Position numbers and translations under genes: made by a program | Part shown: one piece after another, positions 32,690 through 57,618 of the stretch | Numbering within the stretch: position 1 is the first letter of the stretch | Layout: each line of letters begins with the position of its first letter | Notes under the pieces: generated by a model | What the model was told of the DNA's origin: nothing | Seen by the model: the letters and a program-made list of their open reading frames with translations, nothing else | The model's database searches: none | Source: Hyposmocoma kahamanoa | Lineage: Eukaryota; Arthropoda; Insecta; Lepidoptera; Cosmopterigidae | Reading direction: 5' to 3' | DNA length: 64,000 nt | NCBI RefSeq assembly: GCF_003589595.1 | Contig: NW_020654229.1 | Coordinates: forward strand, 5,605,339 to 5,669,338

Positions 32690-32990
32690 TTATCATTATT
32701 AATACAAAGATCGAACACTCAGAAAAAATTCCTTCGATCCGGCCGGATTCGCACCGAAGTCTTCTAGCATACCGAGGCAGACGATATACCAACTAACCCA
32801 CGGAACGAACCAGCGGACCTCACGAATTTTTCTATGTGCTATTTGTGACTTTGTATTTGGTTTTTTTAACGACTTTTTAGTCGTAGAGCCATCTACGAAA
32901 GTTTTATCACCCAGTTAGATACCTTTACAGCTACCGGCCCTGGCGAGACATCTCGCTATTCAATGTATTTTAAATTTTTATTGAATAGAT
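32690..32990 (-). repeat. Repeat R4 with a tRNA-like core
   Basis: On the minus strand, cgtgggttagttggtatatc (A box) and cttcggtgcgaatccggccg (B box) are about 45 bases apart. They are embedded in the R4 body (catagaaaaattcgtgaggt, tacgactaaaaagtcgttaa), which is shared with 7128-7385. This is a tRNA-derived short retroposon rather than a functional tRNA, because no paired acceptor ends are visible. Confidence 0.6.
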
Positions 32991-34714: not shown

Positions 34715-35190
34715 CGAGTATGTAACCAGAAATACAGACGAAATAAGGGCCACCCATCCCTGGCAACTAATCAAGCAAATGAGTATTATATCACTTTTAA
34801 ATGTCAACTCTCGTTTGCACTGAAATCACAAATTAGAAAACTGAAATGGTACAGCGCCAGCAACTGACCTGTGTGTACGTCTCCGTATATTCCAAAAATA
34901 TTGTGTATTTATTGTAATAAAAATAATATCTCTAACTATCAGGGACTGTTCCGTTCGGAAGTGTGGGAAAAACAGCAAAACATCTAATTACAAAACAAAC
35001 GGAATCACATTTCATCGGTAATTAAATATTAAATACGTAATTTTTCAATTTTCGTCCATTGTAGCAAAGCTCAAGTTAAACTAGTCGATTTGAAGTGAAA
35101 TAATTGGCGACACCTGTCAATTGTTTGGAATTCGGGCTGGCCAACCGGAGCGCAGTTGTCACCGTAATGATTTGGCAGAATAGTTTTCAT
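34715..35190 (-). mobile_element. TIR element X, copy 4, truncated by a retrotransposon
   Basis: The intact end cgagtatgtaaccagaaata is at 34715. The body runs antisense to copy 1 and stops at ttggcagaatagttttca, about 30 bases short of the second terminus, where the reverse-transcriptase fragment begins. The missing terminus is not found on the other side of the retrotransposon. Confidence 0.65.
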
Positions 35191-36090
35191 GCCTTAAATT
35201 TTTAAAAATAAAAGTCAATTTTCGAACTTTTTGGGCAAGATTTGAAATATGTTCGTCAAACAACATATTTTTGTCCAGCGTGACACCAAGATATTTAATA
35301 CTCTTCGTATTTTCTATGGGCGTACAGGCACAGTCTGAATCCAATGAGCTGAAACAGGAGTGAGCAACTATGCAGTGGCGAGTATTATCCAGTGTGCAAT
35401 CATTACGTATGGAGAACGTCATATATTTTGATTTAGACACATTTAAAGTTAAGGTATGCAAAGCTAGCCAGTGACAAATTATATTAAATCCTCTCTGTGC
35501 TGAGGCAAACACCGAATCCCAAGTGTCTCCGAAAAACGTAAGTGTTGTGTCATCGGCGTATGTAATGATTTTGCAATTCTCAATTTTGATGTCACACAGG
35601 TCATTAATATAGCAGAGAAACAGAGAGGGACCAATAATGCTTCCCTGAGGCACACCGAAACCCATCGAACACTCATCACTCACGACATTGTCAATTTTTA
35701 CACGTTGGGAACGATCGGAAATATAGCTCTGCAACAATCGCAACTGTTTGCCCCTAACTCCTAGCTTTTCCAGTTTTGACACAAGTATGGGTAGAGATAC
35801 TGCATCAAAGGCTTTTGCCAGGTCTAAGAAGATAGTGAGACATTTTTGTTTACTATCTAGTTTTTTGACAATAAAGTCTACTAATAAATGCACTGCATCA
35901 CTTGTAGACCTACCTTCCCTAAATCCAAATTGAGCCTCTGAGATAAGGTTTTTTGATTTCAGAAACCCGATCAACCTAGAATTGATAATTTTTTCCAGTA
36001 GTTTGGATAATGAAGGCAGAATAGAAATCGGCCGATAATTGGATATACAGTCTCTCTTCCCACCCTTGTGAATCTTGTGAAAATGTGAAT
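35191..36090 (-). pseudogene. Non-LTR retrotransposon reverse transcriptase fragment
   Basis: The minus-strand frame covers RT blocks in order: HKGGKRDCISNYRPISILPS, QFGFREGRSTSDAVHLL, IFLDLAKAFDAV, GFGVPQGSIIGPSLFLCYIN and the catalytic TYADDTT, then the thumb start. The active-site pair DD is intact. The 3' part of the ORF is lost at the junction with element X. Upstream it joins the endonuclease fragment through a frame change and a deletion of the linker. It belongs to a Jockey/CR1-like clade by style. Confidence 0.85.
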
Positions 36091-36670
36091 GTTTAATAAA
36101 ATGGCATCATGATCGGTAACGGCCGAAGACAGAATGAATGTTTGTGACGAAAATTTAGTTTTAATAATAATATGATCCAAGCAACTGTTACCCCTAGTAG
36201 GTGAGTTGAAAGCAGGAATCATCCCGTGATATGAAAGAACATCTAAGTAGTTTGAAGAATTTTCATTACTTTCAGAGATATTGATATTAATATCACCCAC
36301 AAGTATTATATTTTTAAAAGATGCAAGATCAGAGAGCACAACGGAGAGTGAAGACAGAAAGTTATCAGTGTTTGCAAAGGAAGAGGGACGGTACACAGCC
36401 AGTAATGCGATCTCGTTACCAACTTTGATTAGAAGACAGTTAGCGTCCAACAACCGAGGCTCCTCCACTCTAAACTTCAGCCTATCCTGGACCATAACCA
36501 CTACACCATCATTTTGGTTGTAGTTATAAGTTGTTCTAAATACAATAAACTTATGTAAATATATTGTGGGGAATGGGACATGGATTGCCTGGAGTTCGGA
36601 TAATATGAAAATATTGTGATCAATGAAAGGACGGATGAAAAAGACATGATTTGGACCCCCACAAGCTCTA
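36090..36670 (-). pseudogene. Non-LTR retrotransposon endonuclease fragment
   Basis: The minus strand reads NQNDGVVVMVQDRLKF, LLIKVGNEIALLAVYRPSSF, FKNIILVGDININI and LDHIIIKT, ending at VTDHDAILLNI. These are conserved blocks of the APE-type endonuclease (YRPP, GDxN, DH). The conserved SDH is DH within TDHDA. The N-terminal portion decays near 36670. It belongs to the same dead element as the RT fragment, with an internal deletion at about 36090. Confidence 0.75.
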
Positions 36671-36739
36671 AATTTTACTTTATACTTCTTTTTTATTTAG
36701 TATGGACATGCGTAAGGTTTTCGTATACAAGTTTAATTT

Positions 36740-40659: not shown

Positions 40660-40660
40660 T
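40655..40660 (-). terminator. Poly(A) signal of gene A overlapping the stop codon
   Basis: On the minus strand AATAAA starts on the last base of the TAA stop codon (40660-40662). A GT-containing stretch (gtgtactatc) follows. The 3' UTR is therefore probably only about 20 nt. Gene B has the same arrangement with ATTAAA. Confidence 0.6.
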
Positions 40661-43600
40661 TAAAAATTTCTTTTACGAGACTTATTTTTTCTTTTCTGTG
40701 ATTTACAATATCGTAATATCTTCAGCAAATCAGGGTTTCTTAATAAAGTATTTTTGAGACGTGACACGTGCGTTTGATTTTTTGAAGCTTTTGTTGGTTG
40801 TAACACTACATTTTCTTTATTACTTGAAATCTCTTTACTGGAAGTTTCCTTTGAAGATCTTTCATTTGCAATCTCTTCACCGTCACTTTCAGTTGAAGTC
40901 TCTTCATCGTCTCTTTCAGTTGCAATCTCTTTACTATAAATCTCTTTTGTTAATTTTTCTTTATTATGCTTCGTTGGTTTTACCTCCCATGCTCCAGGTT
41001 CGATGCTTGATTTTCTACTTTCGATGGAAACTTCCCTACTATGTGTAATTTTTTTGTTAGGTGATTTTTCGTTACTATTGGCAATTTTTGTGAGTGAATG
41101 TGAATTCTTTGTATTATTTATTTTCTTGATTGCATTTGTAGTAGAAATTTCTCTATTCGTAGTACTTTTTGCTTGAAAACCTTCTTCTAAGTTATTAATC
41201 AAAACTTCTAAATCTTTCATATTATTGTCCTTTGACTGTTGATTATCAGCTTTATTTTTTTCCCTAGCGCTATGTTTTTTATAATTCAGTAATAATTTAC
41301 CCATGATTTCAGTCTGTTGTCTTAAAGAGTCGAAAACTTCTGGATTTTCAGAAATGTACTTTGGATCTATAATGTCTTCATCATTATTGCTTTGTAGTTC
41401 TACTGTCTCTGGTAATCTTGAAGTGGTTTTGTTTTTATTCGACTGTTGAGATAGTAGTATATAGTTTTCGTTTAATACTTTTCCAATTAGATCTAAATGT
41501 GGTATGCTTGTCCATTTCTGGTCTATGTTTTTAACTCTATGGGGCTGAATTACGTCGCCCACTTTTTTCTCTTTTTCTTCGTATGCTTCGATTTCTAAAT
41601 GTCTTGGTGTAGAAGTAATTGTCTTTTTACGTTCCATAGTAAATTTATCTAATGTTTTTTTAATTTTGTCAAATGTGGCTTTTTTGTTTTGAATAAACCC
41701 CGAGTCGTCTTGTAGTTCCAAGTCATCCTTATTTATTTGTAATTGTAGTGGCTTGTATGATTTATTATCAAGTTTTAATGTTGTAGTTTTAGCATGTTTT
41801 GTAGTGATATCCATTTCAACATGAGTGGTGGCAATCTTTGGCGGATTATTAAAAGTATTTAGAAATTTAGTTGATCTAAGACTAGGAGCTTTCGAAGTAA
41901 CGTGTTCATTTATTGTCGATGTTTTATACCTTTGAGTCTGACTTCTGGCATTTCGTGTTTGAATTTTATTATTGAGGTGTGATTCTATAAACACTGACTC
42001 TGTCAAATAAGTTCGATTTACAATGGGTAGTCCGGTTGTCTCTCTTTGTGTTTTGTTAGAAGTATTGTTTTTACTGAATTCACTCAACTTCTTCAAAGTT
42101 TCTAAAGTGTTTTGTAGTTTTTTTATTTCGTTGTCTATTTTGCCGGCCGGTATAGGATTTTCACCGAAATATCTCGAGAATTCCGGGCCCAAGATTGATA
42201 TCAATTTTGGAAAAACATTTTCTGTGTGCTCCTTAGCTAACTTAGGATCTATGATGTATTGTTTTATTAGCGTATCTATTCCCAATGTATCTGTACTGTT
42301 GGTTACATGTAAATCTCTCTCAGCTTTACGATAGGAAACATTACCTTGTACTTGTGAAAAAATACTTGTGAAATCCTTTATGGTATTATTATCAATATTA
42401 TATTTAAGGGTTTCAATAATTTGTGGCTGATAGTGTTCGACAACATTGTTGGGTATTTTTATACGCGCGTCTAGGTATTCTTCGTTTTTGTTTACTATAC
42501 CTCTTCGTGTGTCATCAAAAGCAGTATAGCTATTTTTAATTGGATTTACCTTGACTTGCCGTTCGACTACGCTATGCCCTTTTGATATTGGGATACCATA
42601 TTGTTCATATATATACGACTTAACATCTTCACCACCTTCAAAAACACCCTTTTCAAGTCCTTTCAATTCGCTGGGTTGATTGCTATAATGTAATTTGAAA
42701 TATTTTTCCAAATTGTTAAATTGGTTTTGTGGAGAAATACCCTTGGAAATAGTATCAAGGTGTGAAGAGTACACAGGATCAGGCGCATGAAAATGCAGTG
42801 GTAAATTATCACTTTGGTAAACCGGTATAAACTTTGGCAACGTATGTTGTGGGGGCAAAATTGGGGGTGGCAAAGGCACTTCACTGATTTGGAATTGTCC
42901 TAACACAGGTACATGATATTGTATGGGTAGAAATCGAACATTTTCGTTTTCAATTGTATGCTCTGTATTAGCTCTAAAATGAACATCAGATTTATTTTCG
43001 ATGTTGAAACCAGGCACAGTTCTTTTTGGTAAATTTTCTGTATCATTTTTCTTTTCTCCTTTTATCTCTGGATATAAATTCTTAGTTGTATGTTTATTGT
43101 TATTATTTGCAATAGTATATTGAGTTGGTATATTATCATTGTGCTTGGTCTTGTCATGATCATTGTCTTTTTTTGATATTTTGACTTTCAATTTAAAACC
43201 TGGTTTGTTATTATGAATAGTGTCATTCTTTTTATTAATAACAACACTTCTAGTAAAGTTATTTTGCGCTGATCTTATTGCTTCATCTAGATATTTCAAT
43301 CGAAGTTTAGTTACACGTGATTCATATGTTGGTTTTATGTTTGTTCTCAAAAATGTCGGTTTCAACTCACTATAGTTCAGTGTTGGCAATAGAGGTTCAA
43401 TTACTTTATCATCATTATTTACATATTCCAACAGTTGATTAGAAGGAAAATCAACCAGTGTGTCGTTATTGCCAGTATTTAATTTAACGCTTATCGTTAA
43501 GTTAGCTAATCGCCTAAGTATATCCTCAGCTATACTTTTAGGTACGCCTACATAATTTAATGTATTTCTTTTAGCAACTTCTTTGGATAAAGTTGGTACT

Positions 43601-43685
43601 TTAATGTTATCGTCGACACTCGGTGCGAGAATATGTTGTGTTTTTTCAATTATATTCTGTCTTTTGTACTCCGCACAGTGTATTG
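40660..43685 (-). CDS. Gene A, exon 2: large secreted low-complexity protein, unknown function
   Basis: Exon 2 supplies residues 14-1021 when joined to exon 1 (46372-46411). I recognise no known domain. The exon opens after a good acceptor (cgtaatttcag): two bases complete a Thr codon, then IHCAEYKRQN. An ATG at the usual place is lacking; the in-frame run continues upstream only to the acceptor, which shows exon 1 is elsewhere. The protein is Asn/Lys/Ser/Thr-rich, with about ten N-glycosylation sequons (NLT, NFT, NVS, NST, NKT, NRT), a Pro-rich stretch at about 269-319 (VPLPPPILPPQ) and an acidic Ser/Glu repeat at about 921-971. Blocks shared with gene B: 62-80, 482-528, 691-702, 784-820 (NPEVFDSLRQQTEIMGKLLL) and 989-1021. 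Cysteines are very few. Inference: extracellular, disordered and probably glycosylated. Alternatives: a structural matrix, glue or seminal protein. Host gene rather than transposon, because no enzyme domain is present and the paralogue has conserved splicing. Confidence 0.85.
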
Positions 43686-43869
43686 CTGAAATTACGAATG
43701 TACATTATTGCATAAAACAGGAAATAACCAGAAGCTGGATCAGTATAAATATGGAGACCGAGTCGCAGGCCGTTACTATCGTGGCGCAAATAGAGTGACC
43801 CCTGAAGATCTGCTAGATTTGTAAGCGGTAAAAAATTAGCAGTTCTTTATAGGTGAAGTCCAGTGGGCC

Positions 43870-44350
43870 AACCATAACCTTTCCAAAAACAATCTTGTTT
43901 CAATGTAATCTTAAAGTAAGCTTATTACAATATTACTCATATTTGTACCACGACAAACTTGTCAACCAAGTAATGTATTATTGCTAAAGTGATTGAAAGA
44001 ACGAATGATTTCCCAATATTGTCTATTCATTGCTAAAAATAGGAAAGAGATAACGCTATATGAACTATATAATGCCATCTCTTTCTTTTTTGATGTTCCG
44101 AATCGTGTTATCGTAGTATAATGTTTAAGTACTTAATGGTATTTACATTAAGAGAATTTTGACTGTTGAAAAAAGAAAAGTATGTAATAATAAAATCTAT
44201 TAAAATTACGTTGTTTTCAATAATTATTCCGCATTTTCATGAAGAAAAATAAATAAAACAAGCTGAGTCTTGATAGTCACGTTGTTAATTCGGAATTATA
44301 GTCCAGTGTCAACTGTTAGTTTCGTCAAGGACCATATAGTTGGCGTTGTC
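43870..44350 (-). repeat. Dispersed repeat R7, copy 2 (in gene A intron)
   Basis: Inverted relative to 29118-29605: aaccataacctttccaaaaa, tcttaaagtaagcttattac, gttgatagtcacg-type words and gaccatatagttggcg. Good overall similarity with scattered indels. 44351-44787 shows nothing recognised. Confidence 0.7.
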
Positions 44351-44787
44351 ATAATTTTAAGAAATAAATACCGCATATTTTTACTTAACGAGAACTGCCA
44401 ATAATACATCTTAGTTTTAACTTTACAATAAGCTTACTTTAGGCGCATTATGATACGAAAAGTCAATATAAGGTTAAAGTAATATTGTGTTAAGAGGTTG
44501 TGGTAGGCCCCTTGATAGTAAAAAACTTTTAGTATTGAATAACTTTTTTTCAAAGGGTTGCTGCGCAAAAGTTGTTGATATTCATGTGTGATCTACACAT
44601 CCCTTAAAAACCACGGAAACTTCTTGGGATGGGTCTGTATAACACTTTTTTATATTCCGTCCTACCGTTGCAACCACACACTTTTTTATAGTAGCAAGAA
44701 AAAATGTGTCCTTCGGGATGCTATCCAAAAAGAAAATCAGAGGGTGGAATTTTTCATAGACTCGATCAAGTGGTGACATAATCACAA

Positions 44788-45314
44788 CGAGTATATAACC
44801 AGAAATAGCGACGAAATGTCATTTATTTGTTTGAAAACTATTCTGCCACATAATTACAATAACCAATACTATATATTACTTATATTAATATATGTACAAT
44901 ACCACATAAACAAATGACGGGTGTCGTCAATTGTTTCATTTCGAATCGACCAGTTTAACGCGAGCTTTGCTATAATGGACGAAAATTGCATATATACAAC
45001 ATATTTAATATTTAATTACCGATGACATGTGATTCCGTTTGTTTTGTAATTAGATGTTTTGCTGTTTTTCCCACACCACCGAATGGAATAGCCATCCATA
45101 GTTTGAGATATTATCTTTATTACAATAAATACAGAATATTTTTGGAATATACGGAGACGTACACACAGGTCAGTTGTTGGCGCTGTACTATTTCAACTTT
45201 GTAATTCGTGATTTCAGCGCAAGCGAGAGTTAGTATTTACAAGTGATATAAGGTCCATTTGACTAATGAGATGCCAGGGATGGACGACCCTTATTTAGTC
45301 TCTATTTCTGGTCA
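44788..45314 (+). mobile_element. TIR element X, copy 3 (in gene A intron)
   Basis: The left end cgagtatataaccagaaata is followed by gcgacgaaatg. The right end gtctctatttctggtc is missing its last dozen bases. The body matches copy 1 except for a replaced stretch at 44858-44910. Confidence 0.7.
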
Positions 45315-45672
45315 ATGTGGGTCGGTCATGCATACCACGATGGCGTTAAAAAAGAATACAACACAACCCAATAATCTCTTCAACAAACTCTTTGATAACT
45401 GGCAATCGCTAGTTCTTCACTCGTGGTAAAATTCAAATTAAATTTCACACGTAAATTACGTATAGCGGATTCTAAACCACAGCCTCTGTCGTAGGGCAAA
45501 CCATTGGGCAACCAACGCTTTCAGTTAACTAAAGTTTTAGTATTAAAATTTTCGTACCATGATAAAGGAAAATTGAAGGCTTACCATATATCTTCAAGAT
45601 GAGTAAGCCCTGCCCTATATTAAAGCGTTTGTACACTACGTCTTATTCGCATTAGCTCCGAATCCGAGAAAT

Positions 45673-45946
45673 CGACCCCTCCTACGTAAAGTATCGTATG
45701 TCGAAATTGCCAAGTTTACAGGGGAGCGTTTTAAAGTTCTGAATTCACTGAAGGAGTGATCACCATAGATCATCTAACCGATATCTAGAATTTTATAATA
45801 CTCTATGTGAGTAATGAGCTTTGCCGAATAAAACTGAGAAATGCTAAAGTCACGTGTTGTGCTCGTTTCAGTGAATTCAGAACTTTAAAACGCTTCCCTG
45901 TAAACTTGGCAATTTCGACATACGATACTTTACGTCGGAGGGGTCG
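45673..45946. mobile_element. Long-TIR element T, copy 2 (in gene A intron)
   Basis: Arms cgacccctcctacgtaaagt then atcgtatgtcgaaattgcc, and the inverse ggcaatttcgacatacgata then ctttacgtcggaggggtcg; about 80 bp each and more perfect than copy 1. The inner ends contain gttctgaattcactga and tcagtgaattcagaac. Confidence 0.8.
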
Positions 45947-46091
45947 AAATAATCCGAAATGTTATAGGGATCATTGTATTTCTATGTGTACAAGCGACAT
46001 TCGTATCTTCTCGGATACGAATCGGAATTAATGCACAAGCGACATCCGAAGTGGGTTCGAGTCTGGATTTGTTTAGTCTCGGATGTGGGCC

Positions 46092-46266
46092 TACTCTCGA
46101 TCTTCGCCCAACATCCGTCCGAAAGAATTACTGCCAAATAAGCAATACTTGACCAAATGAAAAGACGCGTGATGCGAAATGAAACCTCATACTGGATACT
46201 TGTCTTTTAATTTTGTCAAATATTACTTATTTGACAGTAACTGTTTTGGACGGAGATCGAGCGTGG
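46092..46266. mobile_element. Foldback element beside the gene A donor site
   Basis: tctcgatcttcgcccaacat then ccgtccgaaagaattactgc pairs imperfectly with cagtaactgttttggacgga then gatcgag. A related half copy at 48508-48600 reads tctcgttttccgcccaacat and cgtccgaaacaaatacagtc. It lies about 105 bp inside intron 1. Confidence 0.6.
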
Positions 46267-46371
46267 TCCCCCTGCACTGCATCGATTCGTATTCGTAGAT
46301 ACGTATCCAACTATGTAACGTTGCTGGCATAACTTGAATGAATTTATGTTGATTAAAAAAAAACAACTTAC

Positions 46372-46411
46372 TCGATATTGTTAACAACATGCAACGCCAA
46401 AAATCAACCAT
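46372..46411 (-). CDS. Gene A, exon 1: start codon and signal peptide
   Basis: The minus strand reads ATG at 46411 and encodes MVDFWRCMLLTIS plus one base, then a consensus donor GTAAGT. Spliced to 43685 it gives ...LTIS-T-IHCAEYK, a short hydrophobic leader ending in a plausible signal-peptidase site near HCA|EY. Support: the phase matches the exon 2 acceptor exactly; gene B has an exon of the same design; and the nine bases AAGGAAATG around the start are identical in both genes. Not proven by transcript evidence. Confidence 0.7.
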
Positions 46412-46675
46412 TTCCTTCAAAAAATTTAACAGAAATCAAATAAAAATAAATGTTTCGCTGGAAAATAAAAGAATTACATAATGCTTGTTAAATATTATAT
46501 GTAAACGTATTGGTATTTCATAACTTCATCGATTTACGGTTCAGTTTTGTACTAAAATTGTTAGTGTGGAAGCGATTTTATTAGCAATATTATTTGTTAA
46601 CGCAGCGGCCGCGAAACGTCGCTCCCATGATAACTAAAACCATCTAAAACGATTTTTTTTTATGATTCCAATTGG

Positions 46676-46925
46676 CGGGACGACCAAGTCGTGCGCCTGC
46701 TGGTAAGGGACACACCTGTCCATAACAGTTGCAGTGTCATTCAGTGATTTAAATCACACAGATCTGATGGACACTGCTACTTCGCCCGTCACTTTGAAAT
46801 ATAAGTTGACAAGTCTCATGAGTCTGTAATATTTCACCTGCACCCTTACGCTTCAAAAGCGAAACGCAATAATGCTAATATTACTGCTTGGTGATAGAAA
46901 TAGGTAAGATGGCATTAATTACATA
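46676..46925 (+). repeat. SINE-like repeat R2, sense
   Basis: gcgggacgaccaagtcgtgc, gcgcctgctggtaagggaca, cataacagttgcagtgtcat, tgacaagtctcatgagtctg and taatgctaatattactgctt give a near full-length copy. A CpG-rich patch follows at 46960-47100 (gcgtgcccgcgaccggtgac), possibly another TE end. Confidence 0.65.
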
Positions 46926-47129
46926 GATGAACTCTCTCACAAGGACCTTTACTGTTACTAAAATTGTAGGCATTGGGTTGGTCGCACCGAATCGCTGCGA
47001 CTTGTTTTAACACGTAGAACTAAATGGCTAAGTGCAGCGTGCCCGCGACCGGTGACTGTTGGTCCAGCGATGAGTCGTCGCAAGTCGCTTGCGACTGCTA
47101 ATAGATGATCAATTAATGTTATTATATTG

Positions 47130-47398
47130 GACAAACAAAGCGAAGTATTGTACCCGCGTCAAAGAACATACAGCTGATGTCAAACACCGTCGAGCATGAT
47201 AAACTATGTTAAATGGATAAACCTACACATTCAATGAAGTTTGACAAACCCCAGGTCCTTGCAAAAGAAGTCCGTTATCTACCCAGGACGCTGCGAGAGG
47301 CCATTGAAATTAAAACACGTCCTAATTTCAACAGGGAAGATGGTTTCTCCGTACCACCAGTTTGGGATCCTCTAATAAAAAATCCCAAACAAACATAA
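47130..47398 (+). pseudogene. Penelope-like element, GIY-YIG-region C-terminal remnant
   Basis: Plus strand: RVKEHTADVKHRREH, a stop, then SMKFDKPQVLAKEVRYLPR, TLREAIEIKTRPNFNREDG and PPVWDPLI, then stop. The order (R.KEH.., FD....LA, REA.EI..RP.N.NREDG, W.P) is the end of the GIY-YIG endonuclease region typical of Penelope-like retroelements (recalled family signature). Only the C-terminal tail survives. Confidence 0.65.
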
Positions 47399-47640
47399 GA
47401 CTGCAGTACTAATTAATATGTTTGGTTTATTATAATTTCTATGATTAATTAATAAGAAATTGAACTTAATAAAAATTCATTCAATAAAATAATTTGTAAA
47501 ACTTAATGTTGTGTAAATTGGAATGTTTTGTAAAATTAAAAATAAGATATTTAATTAATAACAATTGTAACTATAGTGAAAAAATAGGGTGGTTTTGCAT
47601 CAATATTAGACATAACTGGTTGAAGACTGTACCACTTCAG

Positions 47641-47745
47641 TCAACTGTGACCATGGAACCTGTAAAGGGCCCGAAACGTCGGTTTGTTTTAAAAAACAAA
47701 TACCTATACGGGATTTAAATCCGGAAAAATAGTTTCATTTCCTAT
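47641..47745 (+). repeat. Penelope-like terminal sequence (half copy)
   Basis: tgtgaccatggaacctgtaa, agggcccgaaacgtcggttt, tttaaatccggaaaaatagt then ttcatttccta match one arm of the 67-bp inverted repeat at 63560-63724. Its position about 240 bp 3' of the Penelope-like remnant suggests it is that element's terminal repeat. 47746-48631 shows nothing else recognised apart from the foldback half at 48508-48600. Confidence 0.6.
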
Positions 47746-48631
47746 TGTTATTAGATTATTACATAAGTAATTAAAATTATAATAATGAACCCAGGTAGGT
47801 TAATTGATGCAATTCGTAACCGCCGCGGAATATTAATTGGATGAATATTAAATCTCCTCGGAGATTAAGAAATCTCCGAGAAGTTGATTAATCTCATTGA
47901 AGTTGTGAATTCCATAGAACAAAAATCTACAAAACACTGATTTGATGTGTTTTAGTTTTCTTACACTTGAAAAGAATTATTTGAGTACAACAATACAATA
48001 CAAAAATATCCGAAAAACCCGAGTAACCGAAAATTAAGAACTGATAAAACCGGTTTTCAAAATCACTCGGATTTTTTATGCCCTAATCCCAAAGGAACTG
48101 ATCCAAAAGTTTCGTGTTCCAAAATCGAGTTTTTAGGAGACAATCTCATGAATGGTCGTGACACCTCTGGGTCGAACTGGAAACTGGACTGGAACGGAAC
48201 TGGAAAATACTCATGAAGTTCATCTACGATGGAACAGCGATCGACTTTTGTCACAAGTTCGTACTTGACAAGTGAGGGTCTGCCTCTTTCACTTTTGTCC
48301 TCAAGTGAATGTCTTCCCGCCTTAAACTCACGACCCCTTCACCTTTATTATTTTCAGCCTTAATTTTCCCACCATTGACTCACTCATTACACCCTTTCCA
48401 TACACAGAAAGAAACAGTTCATGAATTTCAAACGATTTGAAACCTTGGCTCTAAAAATATTATTACACAACAACTTGAGATAATTTAATACACAACAACT
48501 CGAGACGGAACCTGTACTCTCGTTTTCCGCCCAACATTCGTCCGAAACAAATACAGTCAAATGAGTAACTCGCGACCAAATTAAAAAACAATGTCAAGTA
48601 TGAAGCTTCATTCGCATCAAACGTCTTTTTA

Positions 48632-48958
48632 ACCGACTTCAAAAAAGGTTTTCAATTCGACTGTATGTTCTTTTTGGATGTATCTTACGCGATAACTCCG
48701 GTATTTGTGAACCGATTTTCATGATTCTTTTTTGTTGGAAAGAGGGTACCTCCATAGTGGTCCCATTTAATTTTGAAACAAAATCATCCATTTTTATTAT
48801 CTCCTGTGTCAAGTTCCATATAGTGGCGAACTAGGGGATGAATGCGAGTTTGCGCACTTTCCGGTAACCGATTTCAAGAAAACTTGGTAATTATATCTAC
48901 TTCCACGTACTTTTGAGGTCGGTTTTTTTGGTACTCTGTACTAAGATTATAATTTTTA
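48632..48958 (+). repeat. R1, internally deleted copy
   Basis: The R1 5' half (accgacttcaaaaaaggttt, ttacgcgataactccggtat) jumps to the 3' half (atctcctgtgtcaagttcca, atgaatgcgagtttgcgcac, gtttttttggtactctgtac), losing about 120 bp. Confidence 0.7.
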
Positions 48959-49148
48959 TCGAATCTATCTATCTATCCGACCGTATTCGGTCAAGGCGAC
49001 CACTTCGACTCCTAGTTGAGTTGGCGCTGATGTGCTCGAAGATGACTAATATAGCCAATCTTCGCGGCGAAACCTCGGGACACGTGAGCACATCGCCGAC
49101 GTAATTATAGTAAATAGCGGAGGATGGATGGGCCTTTATTTCGAGAAC

Positions 49149-49335
49149 TTACCTCTTCACAATCCCTCGCCATTCAGGGCGCAGTGCTGCCCAATCTTCC
49201 CATTGAGACGGCTCGATGTTGCATCTTCTCATATGTCGCTTCTGAACATCTTTATAAATGAGGAGTTGACCGCCAGGCTTCCGCCTACCCTCCTCTAGTT
49301 CAAAGTAGAAGATGCGCTTCGCCAGTATATTTATT
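49149..49335 (-). pseudogene. Non-LTR retrotransposon C-terminal remnant
   Basis: The minus strand reads ILAKRIFYFELEEGRRKPGG, QLLIYKDVQKRHMRRCNIE and PSQWEDWAALRPEWRGIVK. The LEEGRRKPGGQxLxYKDVxKRHMxRC motif is a common retrotransposon ORF2 end in invertebrates (recalled). Its upstream part is gone. Confidence 0.65.
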
Positions 49336-49379
49336 GACCGAGTATCTATTTGGCAGTATTCAACAAATATGTTTCGAAC

Positions 49380-49560
49380 GGAGCACGAGAGTACCTGGGC
49401 CAGGCACCGAGGTGGCGAGACCCGACGTCGAGAACTCCATTTCAACGACTTGCTGTGATTTATTGAGAAGTTTCCCTCTTCCGCACAATATTGCGAGATT
49501 TAAAAAGAAACACCAAAAGCGACCTAAGACCAAACCGGAACTCATTTTCTGGATGACCTT
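49380..49560 (+). pseudogene. Possible retrotransposon C-terminal tail
   Basis: Plus strand: TEVARPDVENSISTTCCD, LLRSFPLPHNIARFKKKHQK. The LPLPxNIxRFKKKLK style is that of a retrotransposon ORF end, abutting the minus-strand remnant at 49149. Weak evidence. 49561-49811 shows nothing. Confidence 0.4.
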
Positions 49561-49811
49561 CGTATTTATTGTCCACCAACATTCCCATTTTAAAATACTC
49601 TCACGGCTTTCAATTTATGAACGAAATACCTGCAAGTACTGCGTAGCTATTTTTAAAAGAACCAGTTAACCTTTACCTTCGTAAAATTGCGTTTTTAACC
49701 TTTTTTTGCTTAACTATTTATGGGCGGTTAAGTTTATCTGATTTAACATTTTACTTTAGATCAAGTAAAGCGGCGCACTAGTTGTTAATGCAATAATTAC
49801 AACATTTTTAT

Positions 49812-50590
49812 AAAAAAAAAACTGACCTCAAAAGTACGTGGAATTACATCTATTTGCCAAGTTTTATTGAAATCGGTTACCGGAAAGTGCGCAAACCCGG
49901 ATTCATCCCCTAGTTCGCCACTATACGGGACTTGACACAGGAGATAATAAAAATCGGTTCTCCTACTCAAAGTATATTGAAAGAGAAAAACGCCTTGAGC
50001 AAAATCAATCATTAATACACATTGACTTACAATAATTATATGGACGTCGGGTCCGCGCTAAAAAGTGTCCGAACTTATAGGGCGTTAAAATCGTATACAG
50101 AGCGTCATTCACGCTTTAGTCTTCGTTTGTTCGACTGACAGCGAAGCAAGCAAAATTAGACAGTACTGCGATGACATTACAATTTAAATTCAACGTTTTA
50201 GTTTTTTCATATTCCTTTACATGTCACTACGTTTAAATAGGTTGACTTGGGACATTTTTTTCGTGGTTTTTGTATTAGACCCGTTGTCCATTTATTTGTA
50301 AGTCAATGTTAATACAACAAATAATTGATCCTTATAATAAAATTTTGGCGCTATTTATAAAAAAAATCTTCATGCGTGAACAGCCACCCTTAGAGGTGGA
50401 TTATTTTCTTCAAAATTAACTGGGACCACTGTAGGTATACTATAGGTACCCTCTTTCCAACAAAAAAAGAATCATCAAAATCGGTCCACAAATGGCGGAG
50501 TTATCGCGTAACATACAAAAAAAACATACAATCGAATTAAGAACCTCCTCGTTTCTTTAAAATTGGTTAAAAACAAACGGAAACCGGATT
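49812..50590 (-). repeat. R1 antisense, interrupted by MITE H2
   Basis: Left part: aaaaaactgacctcaaaagt, acatctatttgccaagtttt, gcgcaaacccggattcatcc, gggacttgacacaggagata, cttgagcaaaatcaatc. Right part: aataattgatccttataata, gtgaacagccacccttagag, gaatcatcaaaatcggtcca. The break coincides exactly with the H2 target-site duplication. Confidence 0.75.
50020..50308. mobile_element. MITE H2, full-length, perfect 8-bp duplication
   Basis: 289 bp. It starts cattgacttacaataattat and ends tttatttgtaagtcaatg. The target duplication ttaataca is perfect (50012-50019 and 50309-50316). Nested inside R1, so H2 moved after this R1 copy was established. Confidence 0.92.
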
Positions 50591-50995
50591 CATCCCCTAG
50601 TTTGCCACCCTTAGAGGTGGAATATTGTCTTCAACTTTAAATGGGACCAATGCTGTCGTCCGCTGACTAAAACTTGGCTAAGTGACAAAATATTTTTTTG
50701 AGATGTCATAAAAAATCATAACCCAGTTTTAGAATAGTGATATAGTTTAATGGTATTTCAGTAATGCAATGTTCCGATAAGTTGAACACGTTAACTAATT
50801 TCAACTGTTTTTAAAAGATAATTTTGTGCTCTATCTTTTTCTATAATGCAGAATGCGGAGGTACCCTCTTTCCAATAAAAAAAAGAATCAAAAAATCGGT
50901 TCACAAATGCTTAATAGTAGAAGAGTAGGCGCATAATATACATTAAAAAAATACAGAGAAATTGAGAATCTACTCCTTTTTTGAAGTCGATGAAA
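50591..50995. repeat. Y fragment and R1 fragments
   Basis: 50591-50655 is R1 (gattcatcccctagtttgcc). 50656-50845 is a Y copy without its right end (aaaacttggctaagtgacaa, ataacccagttttagaatag, gaacacgttaactaatttca). 50860-50995 is R1 again (taccctctttccaataaaaa, gagaatctactccttttttg). Confidence 0.6.
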
Positions 50996-51179
50996 AACAG
51001 GACAAACCGGAGGTTTGTAGCATCTGAACCCGGGGTTGGTTTAAAGTTGCAACGGAACCCAAATGAAGCCAATCGCGAGTTTTGTGTGATTCCGGGGCTG
51101 GTAGCTTGTCAAAAAAAATTAAATTTGTATTATCTGAACCCGAATTAATTTTCATTAGATATGGCACATTTTTTTATCA

Positions 51180-51345
51180 TACCAAGTGACTGAACGAGCA
51201 AGTCGTGCGCCTGGTGGTAAGCGACACGCCTGTCCATAACAGTTTCAGTGTCAATCAGAGCTTTAAATCGCAAAGTGGCCATTGCGCCCGGTCTCCCTGA
51301 GACATAAGTTGACAAGTCCCATGTGCCTGTAATTTCGTGTTACCC
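51180..51345 (+). repeat. SINE-like repeat R2, sense
   Basis: aagtgactgaacgagcaagt, cgtgcgcctggtggtaagcg, gtccataacagtttcagtgt and gttgacaagtcccatgtgcc. It ends about 180 bp before the gene B start codon, within the presumed promoter side. Confidence 0.7.
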
Positions 51346-51522
51346 TTATATTACTATCTCATGCTATTCATTTTCCAGTTGGGTTTACTAAATGAGTAAA
51401 CCCGAAGGAAAATGGTAGTAATGGAGTTTTATATCTGTAACAAAATGTTTTATTTCAATTTGTTTTTTATACCCTTACGAAACCGAAAATCAAATTTATT
51501 TTTAGCCTTATCGGCAAAGGAA

Positions 51523-51568
51523 ATGCTATATTTTGTGAATTACATATTCTATGCTGTTTTATTTTCAC
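51523..51568 (+). CDS. Gene B, exon 1: start codon and signal peptide
   Basis: ATG at 51523 encodes MLYFVNYIFYAVLFS plus one base, followed by the consensus donor GTAAGT. Spliced to 54512 it reads ...LFS-P-IICDNITV, a strongly hydrophobic leader with possible cleavage after the Cys. The design matches gene A exon 1 (46372-46411): phase-1 donor, M[LV].F start, aliphatic core, then [PT]I.C. The nine bases AAGGAAATG at the start are identical in both. An in-frame ATG at 51412 could give a longer N terminus; the shared start context favours 51523. No transcript evidence. Confidence 0.75.
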
Positions 51569-51727
51569 GTAAGTATATTAATATTTCAAATAAGCTGCTG
51601 GAGATATGTTGGCACAAACATTAATATATAAACGTCCTACAGCTGGGTATTTGGCGTCGACCTAATTGAAAGCGAATACGCGACCATTGCGTGGATTGAC
51701 GATGCGATCTTCGCGCGCAGGTGGCCT

Positions 51728-52270
51728 AAAGGCCTCTCCACACTCGCGCGCGGTTCACGCGCAAAACCAATGCGCGAATCGCTGCCACAGGTCCACGCTC
51801 GCAGAGGTTCGCGCCTGGTTCACAGCATAGCTCGTGCGCTTGACGAACATGGACGCCGAAGTTGCTGCTGCGGGATTACTTAGCGCTTTGGCGATTTACA
51901 ATTAAGCTTTTATAATGAAAAAATGCTAGAACAATCTACAAATATCAGTTCTAGTGGTTCTAGTTCATTTGTCCAATTCACGGCTATTAATTTACGCACT
52001 TTCAAATCGGCAACAATAAAAACATAAACACAACCGTTCGCGGCACTTATCAGCAACAGAGCCGCACCCGAATGTGGAGCCTTGTCGCGTTCACGCTAAG
52101 TTTGCGCTTCGCGAACCCTTTATAGCGGGACAAAGTACCGACAAGAATCGGGTACTAGCCACGTACACGGCGCGAAACCGCGAAGAATATGCCAATGGGA
52201 TCCACACTCATGCTTCGCGGGTAGGTCGTGGCATCGCGCGTGAATCGCGCGCGAATGTGGAGAGGCCATA
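51728..52270. mobile_element. CpG-rich TIR element in gene B intron
   Basis: The left end ggcctctccacactcgcgcg then cggttcacgcgc and the right end gcgcgtgaatcgcgcgcgaa then tgtggagaggcc are inverted repeats with 2 mismatches in 32. TAA lies just outside both ends (ctaaagg.. and ..gccataat), compatible with a 3-bp TWA duplication of the PIF/Harbinger type, tentatively. Base composition is far richer in CG than the flanks. Short open frames within have no motif. Confidence 0.6.
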
Positions 52271-52309
52271 ATACGTAACCGCGCGAGCCCGTGTTCTCGC
52301 CATTATAGT

Positions 52310-52580
52310 TGCGGCAGCGGAGCCTATCAATTAGGACACCTATTCCGACGTCAATGTTTGATCGTGCGTTCGTACGAACTAAGTTCGCACGAATAGATTC
52401 AAACATTATAGTGGGGCAGTTAGGACACCTATTCGAGATCTGTATATATGATCGCAGATTTGCACGAACATAACTCGCGCGATCTTGCGATGGTCGCGTA
52501 ATCGCGTTCCGCGTAATAGGATGACGCCTCATTCTCCTTTTGGCGACCTTGGTGACCCAAAGATTTGCTTGCACTGTGGG
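52310..52580. repeat. Palindrome-rich segment with a partial tandem repeat
   Basis: taggacacctattc occurs twice (about 52332 and 52420). Between them are cgtgcgttcgtacgaactaa and gttcgcacgaatagattcaa, a hairpin-forming stretch. The right part is again CpG-rich (aactcgcgcgatcttgcgat). Probably TE debris. Confidence 0.4.
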
Positions 52581-52706
52581 CGCTGGAGGTGGAGTAGTCA
52601 GGGAAATGAACCTCTTTTTAAACTGGGTGATAACCCGGATTGATTTCCGATTGCTCTGGTACTCATAGCACTGAGAATTTAGATTAACTTCACATTCAAT
52701 TTATAT

Positions 52707-52923
52707 GTTATATATACCACATATCTTTAATTCCATCTTCTATAACAAAATCATAAAACAAATAAAGTTGAAAATAGCACGCAAGACAGTATTAATGCTG
52801 CAATACAGATGCTGCCCCTCCTGTAGCCCAAGATATCCCTTATATCGTACAAGCGCAAGTTCTTTCTGTTCCATTTCATTTTTAATGTCAATTTATCTAG
52901 AAATATAATTTACATTTCTTGAT
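52707..52923 (+). repeat. 217-bp direct repeat, distal copy
   Basis: It is colinear without gaps with 54257-54473 and differs at about seven positions (about 97% identical by eye). Shared words include cacatatctttaa, gtattaatgctgcaata and gctgcccctcctgtagccca. The two copies are 1550 bp apart within gene B intron 1. Confidence 0.9.
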
Positions 52924-53339
52924 ATCATATAACAAAGTGCTTGATCTATTAAAATCGAAATCAATGATAAAATATTATTCAAAGAGCGAGCGTGCTAGCT
53001 TCTCCGTCCGCTGCGCGCTTCTGCTCTTTCAGTGTGACTTGACCCTTAGCGACGTGTCTGGCAGAAACGGGCTCCAAACGGGATATGTGGCGGAATTTGG
53101 TGTTAAAGGTCAAAACCCACTTTACCAGTAATTTTTTTGAAATTTTATAGAGTCCGCTACTGGTTTTATGCACCGTACATTCCCTTAAAAAAAGGCAATT
53201 AATAAACGAGGAGTTTATTATCGACATATGTAGCAGCTGACGAATCGTGTTCAAAATACACCTTGTACTTCACGTGACCATTATTTTTATACCACGTTAA
53301 AATAACTCTTTTTAATCTAAAAAAATTTAAATGTAATTT

Positions 53340-53532
53340 TTTGTAAGGAAAGAAAGAAAACTGTTTGTTATACAAGCACCGACACGCATTAAACAAAACA
53401 ATAGTGGAACAATAATAATAATACCAGTTCATATAATTCACCGTCTTGCGTGTCGCGCTTGGTGCAATCGGGACTTGCTCAGCTTTAGCCCCAAAACGGC
53501 TTTTTTTTAAACCGTTTCGTGGCGCTGATGTA
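53340..53532 (-). repeat. Microsatellite-tailed repeat R6, copy 2
   Basis: aaagaaagaaaactgtttgt, acaatagtggaacaataata, cgcgcttggtgcaatcggga and aaaccgtttcgtggcgctga, as at 14993-15385 but with a shorter tail. Confidence 0.65.
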
Positions 53533-53700
53533 TGTATGTTACGCGATATTCTTTTGATAATGATAATTTGTTTTTATTGGAAAGACGGTACCTCAGATGT
53601 GGTCCCATTTAAATTTGAAGAAAATATTCCACCTCTAAGGGTTGCAAACTAGGGTATGAATCACTTTTGAGGTCGGTTTTTTTAGTACTCCGTACTGTCT
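53533..53700 (+). repeat. R1 fragment
   Basis: tatgttacgcgatattcttt, agacggtacctcagatgtgg and ggtcggtttttttagtactc. 53701-54256 contains no recognised feature. Confidence 0.6.
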
Positions 53701-54256
53701 TTTAAAGCATACTGTTAAACCTTCTATACGTGTACCCTGTGGGTGAAGGTGACCCTAATTACGCCGAGGGTACAGCATAATAAAGCGTTTAGGATGTTAC
53801 TGGAGTTACCGCGACAATGTAGCACTTCAGGTATGTTCGCTGAGGCACGCATAGAAGGCTTTCGTGCCATTTTGAGGAAGCGGGTTGCCTCACTTTGGCG
53901 ACATGTACGTGGGTACCAGCATTCTGAAAGTCGAGGTGGATAGAATTGACTTGCCCATCCAGGCCCTAGGGATGCAACTTTATGTGGCGGTTTAGTTTAA
54001 GTTTAGCTTAAGTATTCTATTGTACTTTACTTATTTTTAAGTGTTAGATCTATTTCAATTTTATGTTTAAACAATTTCAATTTTACATTTAATCAATTTC
54101 TATTTTATATTTAATGTAATTTTCTGTGATTTTCTTTTAATTCTATTTTATGATTTCATAGTTTTTGAATTTTAATTTTGTATCCTAAGTTCTTTACTAA
54201 CAAACCATGGATAATTGTTTTTGTCCTGTCCTTCTCAAAGCGAAGCGTACGGTCAC

Positions 54257-54473
54257 GTTATATATACCACATATCTTTAACTCCATCTTCTATAACAAAA
54301 TCATAAAGCTAATAAAGTTGAAAATAGCATGCAAGACAGTATTAATGCTGCAATACTGATGCTGCCCCTCCTGTAGCCCAAGATATCCCCTATATCGTAC
54401 AAGCGCAAGTTCTTTCTGTTCCGTTTCATTTTTAATGTCAATTTATCTAGAAATATAATTTACATTTCTTGAT
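54257..54473 (+). repeat. 217-bp direct repeat, proximal copy
   Basis: This copy ends 38 bp before the gene B exon 2 acceptor AG, so it overlaps the area where a branch point would be expected just downstream. It is probably the ancestral copy, because it is contiguous with the acceptor. Confidence 0.85.
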
Positions 54474-54511
54474 TTGAGAAATAACTAATACATCGCACTT
54501 GTTTTTTTTAG

Positions 54512-57500
54512 CTATCATTTGCGACAACATCACTGTAACTGTAACTGGAACTAATTTTACAACTACCACTAAACACATACCAGTACCAAATGGGACTAGA
54601 AAATACGTTAACCGTCAAAATACTACAACTACCATTGCACCTACAAATATAAATGTCGCTGAAGCTATTGTGAATGATATTAAAAGAAAGGCAGTTTTCA
54701 ACGATACTAAAGAAAAAGACGTAATGATAAATAATAATAACAATAATTCTAAATTATATTCCAATGTTCCTGTCGTACTTAACACTACATTTGTGACATC
54801 CCGTGTGGGGTCGACTGTTAAGCCCTCGTCTTCTACAGATGAACCTAATGCATTAAAAATCGCTAATGAATTACACCTGCTCGAGAAACTTACTGCAATA
54901 CTACCAGATGTTCTCGATGAGAAAATGAATAGTAATCAAAGTAGTGCCAATGAAACTGCAAAAAAGGATTTAGAAGTATTTGAACAGTTTTCATTGTCAC
55001 ACTATTTAGATCCAGACGCAGAAGTAGTTGTATTTAGAAAGAATGAAAGACCCCAAAGGCAAATTTCTGATTTATCACCTCAAAAACATATTTTAGACAA
55101 CAATAATAACGAAACGCACATTTTTGAATTAGCACCACAAATAAAGAATTTTGACACTTATAACAACGCCGATAAAACTGTTCCAACGGTCTACGATCGA
55201 AATAGAATGCTTATTTCAGATGCACCACCTCAGTTTAGATCTTTAGACAATGATAATATATCTCGAAAACTAATTCTAGATATGCCTAAGCCAGACTTTA
55301 ACCCAGTTTTACACATTTCCCAGTGTAATTCTTGTATAGCCAGTGTTAACAAAATGAACTGGAATATGCCAGAACCAATCAGTACAGCAAATAACCAGCA
55401 ATTTGATATAATACAGTCATATCCTTTACAAATTCGCAATACGGATATGTACAAAAGTCAAAATTCTTTTGACAATGATAAGGGAACTTATCTATATCTC
55501 TCACCTACACTGGATAATCCACATATTCTTCAAGGATATCGAAGAATTAATCATATAAATAAAAATTTTCGTACCAGCGACGACAATCCTCCTCTTCATT
55601 ACGAGATGGAAAAAAAATTGGAATCAAAAAATAAAAATGTAATTGAATCCAAAGTGGGTGCAGATAACACTATTTCTTTTGATATGCTCAACAATCCCTA
55701 TAGTAAGCTTAACTTAGTACTTCCCACGCCTGGATCAGATTTCAATAACAAGTATCCTTGGTTAATAGGAAATTCTCCTTTACATTCTGCACTGAGACGT
55801 CAACCATTGCCAGCTATGCATTCACTTTTAATGCTAAATGAACCTGAATCCAATTCAGATCTAAAATCTGCTACTCCAGCTCCAGTTGGATCACCAACGA
55901 AATTTTCTCAACTGCCTACCAACAAAGACAAGTTTGAATATTACGATACGCTTATAAATATTATTTCAAACAAAAACAAAATTTCCAATAATAATAAACA
56001 TCGTGCGAAAGAACCAGTGAATGCAATGTTCGAGACTGCTAACGAAAAGTTACTTTTAGAAATGAATGAATTTAAACAAAATTTTCTTAAATTAAAGCCA
56101 CAACACCTAGTGGGTGGACCGGGAAGGCTAGAGGATGAAAAACATCAATTGCCGTTGGATAAAAAAATCGATCTTCCAATTCAGTATCTAAAAATGGCTG
56201 ATACCAGTGCACAATCAAACAAAATAAGCCACGCAAGTGAAGCAATTATCGAAGATCAAGCTGAAGTTACAGCACGAAAAAGATACTCTTCAGCTAATTC
56301 AAACCAACTATCAACAATGGACAATAAAAAACCTGAAAGCAATAAACACGTAGTAACGGAAGACCTTATACAATATCCGTTTGAAGTACCACCTATGGAA
56401 ATTGATACTTCAAAGAGAAGAGCTTTGGATTCTAAAACTGGACGTAATATTCAAAGAGATTTGACCGTCCCTTTGGATATGCTTATAATACAATTATTAC
56501 GGGCTAATGGATTTGATACAGAGAAAATTGATCAATTTTGGCCACACCTTGTTGCTCTTTTAGCCAATCATATTCCTTATCTTCCTAAATCTATACCTTA
56601 CTATCCACCAAGTCAATTACCAAATGATAGTTTGAAAGTACAAAATATTAACATCCCTAATTTACCTGCTATTGAAAATATACGTAATGTTGAACCTAAA
56701 TACTTACCTATCCCAAACGTGATTTCTAATGTAACAGATAGACAACATATCACTCAATCTCATGGAGGGAAACTGAATAATGAAACAACAACAACAGTAA
56801 ATTACAATGTCACGGATTCAATACAAAATACAATACAGTCTTTGCTATCATCGCATAATGTTACTAACAATTCGGATACTATATCAGTTAGTACAACAAT
56901 TTTTCTTGATGTAACTGACAATGATACAAATTTAGACCCAAAAGATATTAGAAGACATTTGGAAATTATTAAAATTGAGAACAATGCTAATAACGCATCT
57001 GTTTTATTACTTAATAAAAGAAACTATGATGAAATATTGAAATCTTTAGACAGTTTTACATTAGAAAGAAAGAAAGCCTATGTAACTGTAGTACCAACTG
57101 AAAATACTAGAGAATATTTAGATATAGGACGGTCAAAATACAACAGAACTGTAGATCCAACATTTTTGGACAAAGTTTTTGGTAACAAATACACTCCCGA
57201 AAAACAAGTAACTATAGGTCCAGCAAAAGAAGAATTGTTAGATTCTAAAGACTTTTTAGACAATCCACAAGTTTTCAGCGCTTTGAAAAAACAGACAGAA
57301 CTTATGGGGAAACTGCTTCTTAAACTAAGAGGCGAGAGCGCTCGAAAGAACGCTGGAAAAGATTTCCAAGATTTGATAAAAGAAGTTGAGGCTAAAAAAC
57401 ATGGAACGTATACAACGGAAATTATAGAAGACCTGAATAAAAGAATAGGCGATGAAACAAAGACACCACCGACTACAGTTATGACAATGATTGACGAAAC

Positions 57501-57618
57501 GGAAGTACGTAAAGCATTAAGGAATAGTCCTTATGTAAAAAGGATTCTGAAGCTCAGTAAAATGAAAAGAGATAAATATTATCAAGGCAAGAAAACTGCG
57601 GAGCGTAAAAAATATTAA
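54512..57618 (+). CDS. Gene B, exon 2: large secreted low-complexity protein, paralogue of A
   Basis: Exon 2 encodes residues 16-1050 when joined to exon 1 (51523-51568). The apparent MFFLA start upstream is an artefact of reading through the polypyrimidine tract; the coding part begins IICDNITVTVTG. No known domain is recognised. It is rich in Asn, Lys, Asp, Ser and Thr, with homopolymeric Asn (NNNNNN near 85), Pro-rich patches and about a dozen N-glycosylation sequons (NIT, NFT, NQS, NET, NVT, NAS, NRT). Blocks shared with gene A: 62-80 (AEAIVNDIKRK), 668-712 (LDMLIIQLLRANGF ... WPHLVALL), 860-872 (LDSFTLERKK), 924-965 (NPQVFSALKKQTELMGKLLL) and 1010-1050 (basic tail). One CxxC (CNSC near 290) is not conserved. 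Inferred extracellular and largely disordered. Function unknown. Confidence 0.88.

Follow-up and report, generated by a model that had tools for sequence, protein, structure and literature searches.

In the 64-kb stretch of Hyposmocoma kahamanoa DNA analysed here (C1004:5605339-5669338 of the 728-Mb assembly; hereafter, the window), two intact genes of two exons each, designated A and B, are divergently transcribed and lie 5.1 kb apart. They follow a common plan, i.e., a short exon 1, a phase-1 intron and a single long exon 2. Gene A, on the minus strand, encodes 1021 amino acids (aa); its 40-nt exon 1 (46411-46372) specifies MVDFWRCMLLTIS plus the first base of a split codon, its phase-1 intron spans 43686-46371, and its exon 2 runs from 43685 to 40660, including the stop codon. 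Gene B, on the plus strand, encodes 1050 aa, with a 46-nt exon 1 (51523-51568) that specifies MLYFVNYIFYAVLFS and, again, the first base of a split codon, a phase-1 intron at 51569-54511, and an exon 2 at 54512-57618 that also includes the stop codon. The spacer between both start codons comprises 5,111 bp (46412-51522). Each exon 1 starts with ATG and ends at a GTAAGT donor with a phase-1 join, and the splice sites of A and B are canonical (donors CGA/GTAAGT and CAC/GTAAGT, acceptors TTTCAG/C and TTTTAG/C, respectively).

The long exons lie in open frames that span 40660-43704 of the minus strand in A (1014 codons from stop to stop) and 54478-57618 of the plus strand in B (1046 codons). At the local base composition, the chance of a stop-free frame this long is 1e-31 to 1e-32. 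The G+C content at third codon positions is 25.0% in one and 24.3% in the other member of the pair, below that of the first and second positions. These frames and splice sites agree with the coordinates, exon structure and lengths given for both genes in an earlier annotation of the window made by a model from the letters alone (hereafter, the original prediction). In both genes, the exon join falls inside a similar hydrophobic N-terminus (S-T-I-H-C in A and S-P-I-I-C in B) and, because of this, the position of the intron looks homologous by eye. We regard it as virtually certain that A and B are real genes and paralogues. As detailed below, they are intact, constrained and divergently transcribed, they both occur in several related species, and they share their C-terminal half and exon plan and contain no catalogued domain.

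The divergent paralogy was borne out by both pairwise and profile comparisons. A BLASTP alignment of A and B without composition correction reached 73.9 bits, compared with at most 49.3 among 1000 shuffles of B and with 29.3 for reversed B. The profile-profile comparison (hhalign) gave a probability of 99.2% (E 9.3e-20), with 27% identity across 327 columns. When the profiles were split, the signal was found between residues 441-1009 of A and 621-1035 of B in exon-2 numbering (99.5%, E 1.1e-22), whereas the N-terminal parts gave no homology signal (0.2%, E 0.26). The A-B homology is thus restricted to the C-terminal halves; the five collinear blocks of the original prediction were confirmed, and extended by a sixth at the tail, but homology over the full length was not.

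The coordinates of these blocks are given below on the plus strand for B and on the minus strand for A. Block 1, as aligned by hhalign, comprises LDMLIIQLLRANGFDTEKIDQFWPHLVALL in B (56473-56565) and IDTLIKQYIIDPKLAKEHTENVFPKLISIL in A (42190-42279). Block 2 corresponds to NYDEILKSLDSFTLERKKAY (B, 57022-57081) and TFDKIKKTLDKFTMERKKTI (A, 41617-41676), and block 3 to DPTFLDKVFGNKY (B, 57154-57192) and PHLDLIGKVLNENY (A, 41461-41502). The strongest A-B match is block 4, with LDSKDFLDNPQVFSALKKQTELMGKLLLKLRGESAR at 57238-57345 in B and IDPKYISENPEVFDSLRQQTEIMGKLLLNYKKHSAR at 41263-41370 in A; it is followed by block 5, with GKDFQDLIKEVE at 57355-57390 and MKDLEVLINNLEE at 41182-41220, respectively. 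The tail block 6, represented by ETEVRKALRNSPYVKRILKLSKMKRDKY in B (57496-57579; mostly invariant in the nine B sequences of the set described below) and by SRLKNTLLRNPDLLKILRYCKSQKRK in A (40687-40764), was significant on its own, since none of 500 column shuffles attained its score. The coding exon of A additionally contains, at 40816-40962, repeats of approximately 27 bp (SKE.ATE/SSKETSSKE units) whose copy number differs among its relatives.

Both genes are conserved beyond this assembly. Our first two protein searches, in which scoring was limited to the 7993 and 7992 candidates with the most shared words and to proteins of 0.55-1.75 times the query length, so that broken copies could not be found, identified eight relatives of B (956-1089 aa) and seven of A (876-1030 aa), all 55-92% identical. 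A third search, whose query was the last 275 residues of one of the B relatives, returned only the same eight proteins, the query among them. Each relative is encoded on one contig of 3.1-4.5 kb. By eye, the intron acceptor is read as coding sequence at the start of four of the eight B relatives (P0001, P0002, P0003 and P0005) and of four of the seven A relatives (P0010, P0011, P0013 and P0014); therefore, these contigs are genomic and the acceptor position is common to them.

The A set (8 sequences) and the B set (9 sequences) produced trees of matching shape. When the seven A relatives were matched with seven of the eight B relatives, the correlation of the A and B distances was 0.937, a maximum over 40,320 pairings whose median was 0.04. 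The next-best pairings (0.937, 0.931, 0.930 and 0.921) differ only within close groups, and the set contains no A counterpart of the B relative P0008. This match supports the presence of A and B in the same species and, since the two trees mirror each other, the pair is older than the species sampled.

With respect to the distribution of conservation, the last 275 residues of B are 76-94% identical to its relatives per 40-residue bin, the closest relative excluded, and the identity elsewhere falls to 41%. In A, the identity per bin ranges from 48% to 85%. Conservative replacements exceeded the expectation for single random base changes in 15 of 15 comparisons (z from 0.3 to 3.2, and at least 2 in 10 of the 15), although these comparisons are linked by common ancestry and, for distant pairs, the one-step model is only a rough approximation. 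Under the same model, 4.2 and 4.4 stops would be expected for the two closest pairs, and 15-26 for the remaining ones; none was seen, in a search that returns only long open frames. We read these patterns as purifying selection on A and B, strongest in the C-terminus of B, in line with the constraint that had been proposed from the intactness of the two frames.

Neither protein has a credible match to a known family, as originally stated. In Pfam, A matched no family and B matched only SRP54_N below the cut-off (E 0.26, 12 of 22.4 bits); in NCBIfam, A again matched none and B only PRK08691, far below the cut-off (E 0.0061, 15.2 of 969 bits). Pfam searches with each relative yielded three families, each in one of the nine B members (best E 0.02), and none in the eight A members. 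As a positive control, Pfam detected a reverse transcriptase at 35159-36106 of the same window (E 2.3e-37). In the PDB, B had no match by sequence or by profile at E <= 1, and A had one weak match by each method (E 0.52 and 0.79). Pattern searches of IMG/VR gave 89 matches for B and 75 for A, and a search of GTDB genomes with B gave 122; none of these was confirmed. Six diagnostic peptides did not occur in the main text of 5.39 million papers (supplements lay outside the scope of this search), and nothing describing the A-B pair was seen in keyword listings of the literature, which is no proof that the pair is unpublished. The protein-family libraries that we searched do not cover A and B. Insect genomes commonly contain uncharacterised secreted families of this type, and relatives of A and B may already be annotated as hypothetical proteins.

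The N-termini of both proteins are hydrophobic across the exon join, with 9-residue Kyte-Doolittle peaks of 2.09 and 2.41; exon 1 was seen in no relative. The putative signal peptide starts in exon 1 and continues in exon 2 as ...T-IHCAE in A and as ...P-IICDN in B. By hydropathy, exon 1 probably encodes most of this peptide and, on this basis together with the gene plan, A and B are very likely to be secreted. Both proteins are rich in Lys, Asn and Thr, with net charges of +30 (A) and +7 (B), and each has three cysteines and no cysteine-rich or enzyme domain. There are 19 N-glycosylation sequons in A and 20 in B, compared with 15.0 expected for each; five in A and six in B are kept in every row of the alignments having a residue there. 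The most conserved N-terminal block of B, DLEVFEQ-SLSHYLDPEAEVVVFRKNERSQRQISD (exon-2 residues 153-187; 54967-55071, plus strand), is nearly invariant and contains the single RxxR furin-type site of this protein (residues 180-183), whose R180 and R183 are invariant in all nine B sequences. The conserved processing sites amount to one RxxR and five dibasic sites in B, and to no RxxR and one dibasic site in A.

The original prediction described both proteins as disordered. According to FoldIndex, 70% of A is unfolded (68-78% in its relatives), which agrees with that description, whereas the share in B is a moderate 54% (40-65% in its relatives). AlphaFold was uninformative. Disorder is therefore probable for A, and for B it is supported only in part.

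Based on these features, we tentatively propose, as the best reading at present although one more apt to be wrong than right, that A and B form a co-secreted two-subunit extracellular scaffold of flexible glycoproteins that associate through C-terminal helices, with B cut by furin. The peptide that exon 1 encodes for the most part would direct both proteins into the secretory pathway; they would be N-glycosylated at the conserved sequons, and the chains released would be long and largely flexible. Their N-terminal parts, which evolve fast, could serve as spacers or as partner-specific regions, and the conserved helical motifs of the C-terminal half (blocks 2 and 4 and the basic tail) could mediate either the A-B association or the binding of a common extracellular partner. 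A furin-type protease would cut B at the conserved RxxR site and free an N-terminal piece, and the A-B association would build or organise an extracellular layer. We infer the association, the cleavage and the layer from the features described above.

Several observations weigh against this proposal. The transcription, tissue, localisation and interaction of A and B are considered here from sequence alone, and their signal peptides were judged from hydropathy only. Mirrored trees are expected for any two co-inherited genes and are no proof of interaction. The composition of both proteins (Gly 2.4-2.6%, Ser 7.0-7.4%) is unlike that of known structural matrix proteins, the excess of sequons over the compositional expectation is only modest, and FoldIndex leaves B about half folded. 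Finally, the AlphaFold models, built with 8-9 sequences, have a mean predicted local distance difference test score (pLDDT) of 29.8 for A and 28.3 for B, which is uninformative on fold or disorder; they draw helices at the shared blocks, with a confidence too low for use.

A stronger version of the scaffold would make A and B the obligate subunits of an undescribed extracellular assembly, originated by an old tandem duplication that was kept as a divergent unit, co-assembling through matched C-terminal helices, with N-terminal halves diverged into unrelated tethers and B activated by furin; we consider this version very doubtful. If true, co-assembly would represent a new system of extracellular construction in insects. 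For now, the pair is one more uncharacterised, probably secreted protein family, a real and constrained one of two genes beyond the protein-family libraries searched. Divergent paralogue pairs of this kind are useful for asking how secreted flexible proteins keep their function while half of the sequence diverges until it is no longer recognisable.

The best-defined rival, because large and diverse vitelline membrane proteins (VMPs) are known in moths, is that A and B are reproductive-tract secretions, i.e., proteins of the eggshell, vitelline membrane, accessory gland or spermatophore. Excerpts of two studies describe large VMPs of great sequence diversity in lepidopteran eggs (PMC9455775, PMC3654919), and the gene plan of a secreted protein, the size and the fast evolution of most of the chain fit such a role. 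Nevertheless, conservation as strong as that of the C-terminus of B is unusual in reproductive proteins that evolve rapidly, and the possible link to VMP90 and EP80 is drawn from published descriptions. We consider this reading improbable in itself; it overlaps with the scaffold proposal, of which it would be a tissue-specific form.

It is quite unlikely, in our view, that A and B are modulators of signalling or immunity that, once secreted, use their C-terminal helices to bind a receptor or matrix partner and have no structural role. The focus of the constraint on short helical motifs and on the basic tail is what such a function would predict, but the proteins have no cysteine framework or known ligand fold, and nothing ties them to a receptor.

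The conserved processing sites could also indicate that A and B are precursors of peptides or prohormones, cut at furin and dibasic sites, with the invariant C-terminal segment of B as the active product. B has, besides the invariant RxxR, several invariant KR sites, and an almost unchanging segment lies between KR 977-978 and KR 1010-1011. However, A retains no RxxR and a single dibasic site, despite the C-terminal region common to both proteins, the sites of B are not preceded by the glycine required for amidation, and many KR pairs arise by chance in lysine- and arginine-rich proteins. As judged from these motifs, the precursor interpretation fits the processing sites of B and not A, and we find it decidedly unlikely.

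The weakest alternative, that A and B are domesticated or decaying mobile-element genes, draws on the repeats that fill their introns and the spacer, and it is largely refuted and hardly credible, given that the exons are not repeated elsewhere in the window, that a genome search with B as the query recovered B itself as a single copy, then A (E 5.7e-4) and nothing more at E <= 10 (three candidates scored), that no transposon domain was found with the same library that detects the reverse transcriptase in the window, and that the relatives retain long open frames. A transposon or viral origin was consequently set aside, with no such domain, no confirmed IMG/VR match and two genome matches with the B query; a match to a transposon or to a characterised family, which the original prediction had named as evidence against its claim, was looked for in these searches and none was found.

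The repeats around the exons are of several kinds. Elsewhere in the window, sequences are repeated that account for 50% of the A intron, which contains interspersed repeats, for 29% of the B intron and for 42% of the spacer. A 501-bp piece of the A intron (44000-44500) has at least 65 matches genome-wide, up to 93% identical elsewhere. The same intron contains an 81-bp inverted repeat (45672-45752 and 45867-45947; 98% complementary, with a 114-bp loop) that looks like a young miniature inverted-repeat transposable element. In the B intron, two direct 217-bp copies (52707-52923 and 54257-54473) are 97% identical and 1.3 kb apart; the second copy stops 38 bp before exon 2, and they could be the terminal repeats of a short element. 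A promoter region common to A and B may lie in the spacer. The co-regulation from this spacer that had been suggested is unsupported, considering its repeat content, and the 5' flanks of A and B (120 nt before the starts) showed no likeness beyond chance, with 130 of 1000 shuffles reaching their score.

Further from the pair, the window contains a broken non-long-terminal-repeat retrotransposon at 35159-36696 of the minus strand, with an RVT_1 frame that is overlapped, in another phase, by an endonuclease-like frame. A tRNA-like match at 32734-32807 of the minus strand is slightly above the Rfam cut-off (30.7 vs 29 bits) and is perhaps the head of a short interspersed nuclear element. A codon-bias scan of 204 kb around the pair, i.e., the window and fourteen 10-kb stretches, identified only one further long coding exon in this repeat-rich region. 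This exon, designated gene C, comprises 408 codons at L020:1103-2326 of the minus strand (G000:C1004:5710441-5711664), approximately 48 kb beyond B. It is Asn/Lys-rich and has a hydrophobic start and a TTTCAG phase-1 acceptor, like the pair, and A, B and gene C are possibly a loose cluster of secreted genes. As a third member of the family, gene C is unsupported, since its score was reached by 53 of 1000 shuffles in the comparison with A and by 137 of 1000 in that with B. Additionally, to the right of the window, a 129-codon frame of coding-like composition (...PPSYDSINREED...) at L017:4119-4505 of the minus strand has no Pfam match and is possibly an exon of another gene.

Among known systems, the silk fibroin heavy chain and the sericins are encoded by a short signal exon and one giant exon. 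A and B resemble them in the short first exon with a putative signal peptide followed by a single long coding exon, and differ from them in that their alignments contain no Gly/Ala/Ser repeats; A and B have 2.6% and 2.4% Gly, 2.9% and 4.4% Ala, and 7.4% and 7.0% Ser, respectively. With the CPR (R&R) cuticular and chitin-binding proteins, they would share the condition of extracellular secreted insect proteins; in contrast, A and B have no chitin-binding Pfam match and only three cysteines each. The plan of VMP90 and EP80 would be similar to that of A and B. According to excerpts of the same two studies, lepidopteran proteins of this kind are large, secreted and poorly conserved outside the order (PMC9455775, PMC3654919), features in which A and B may resemble them.

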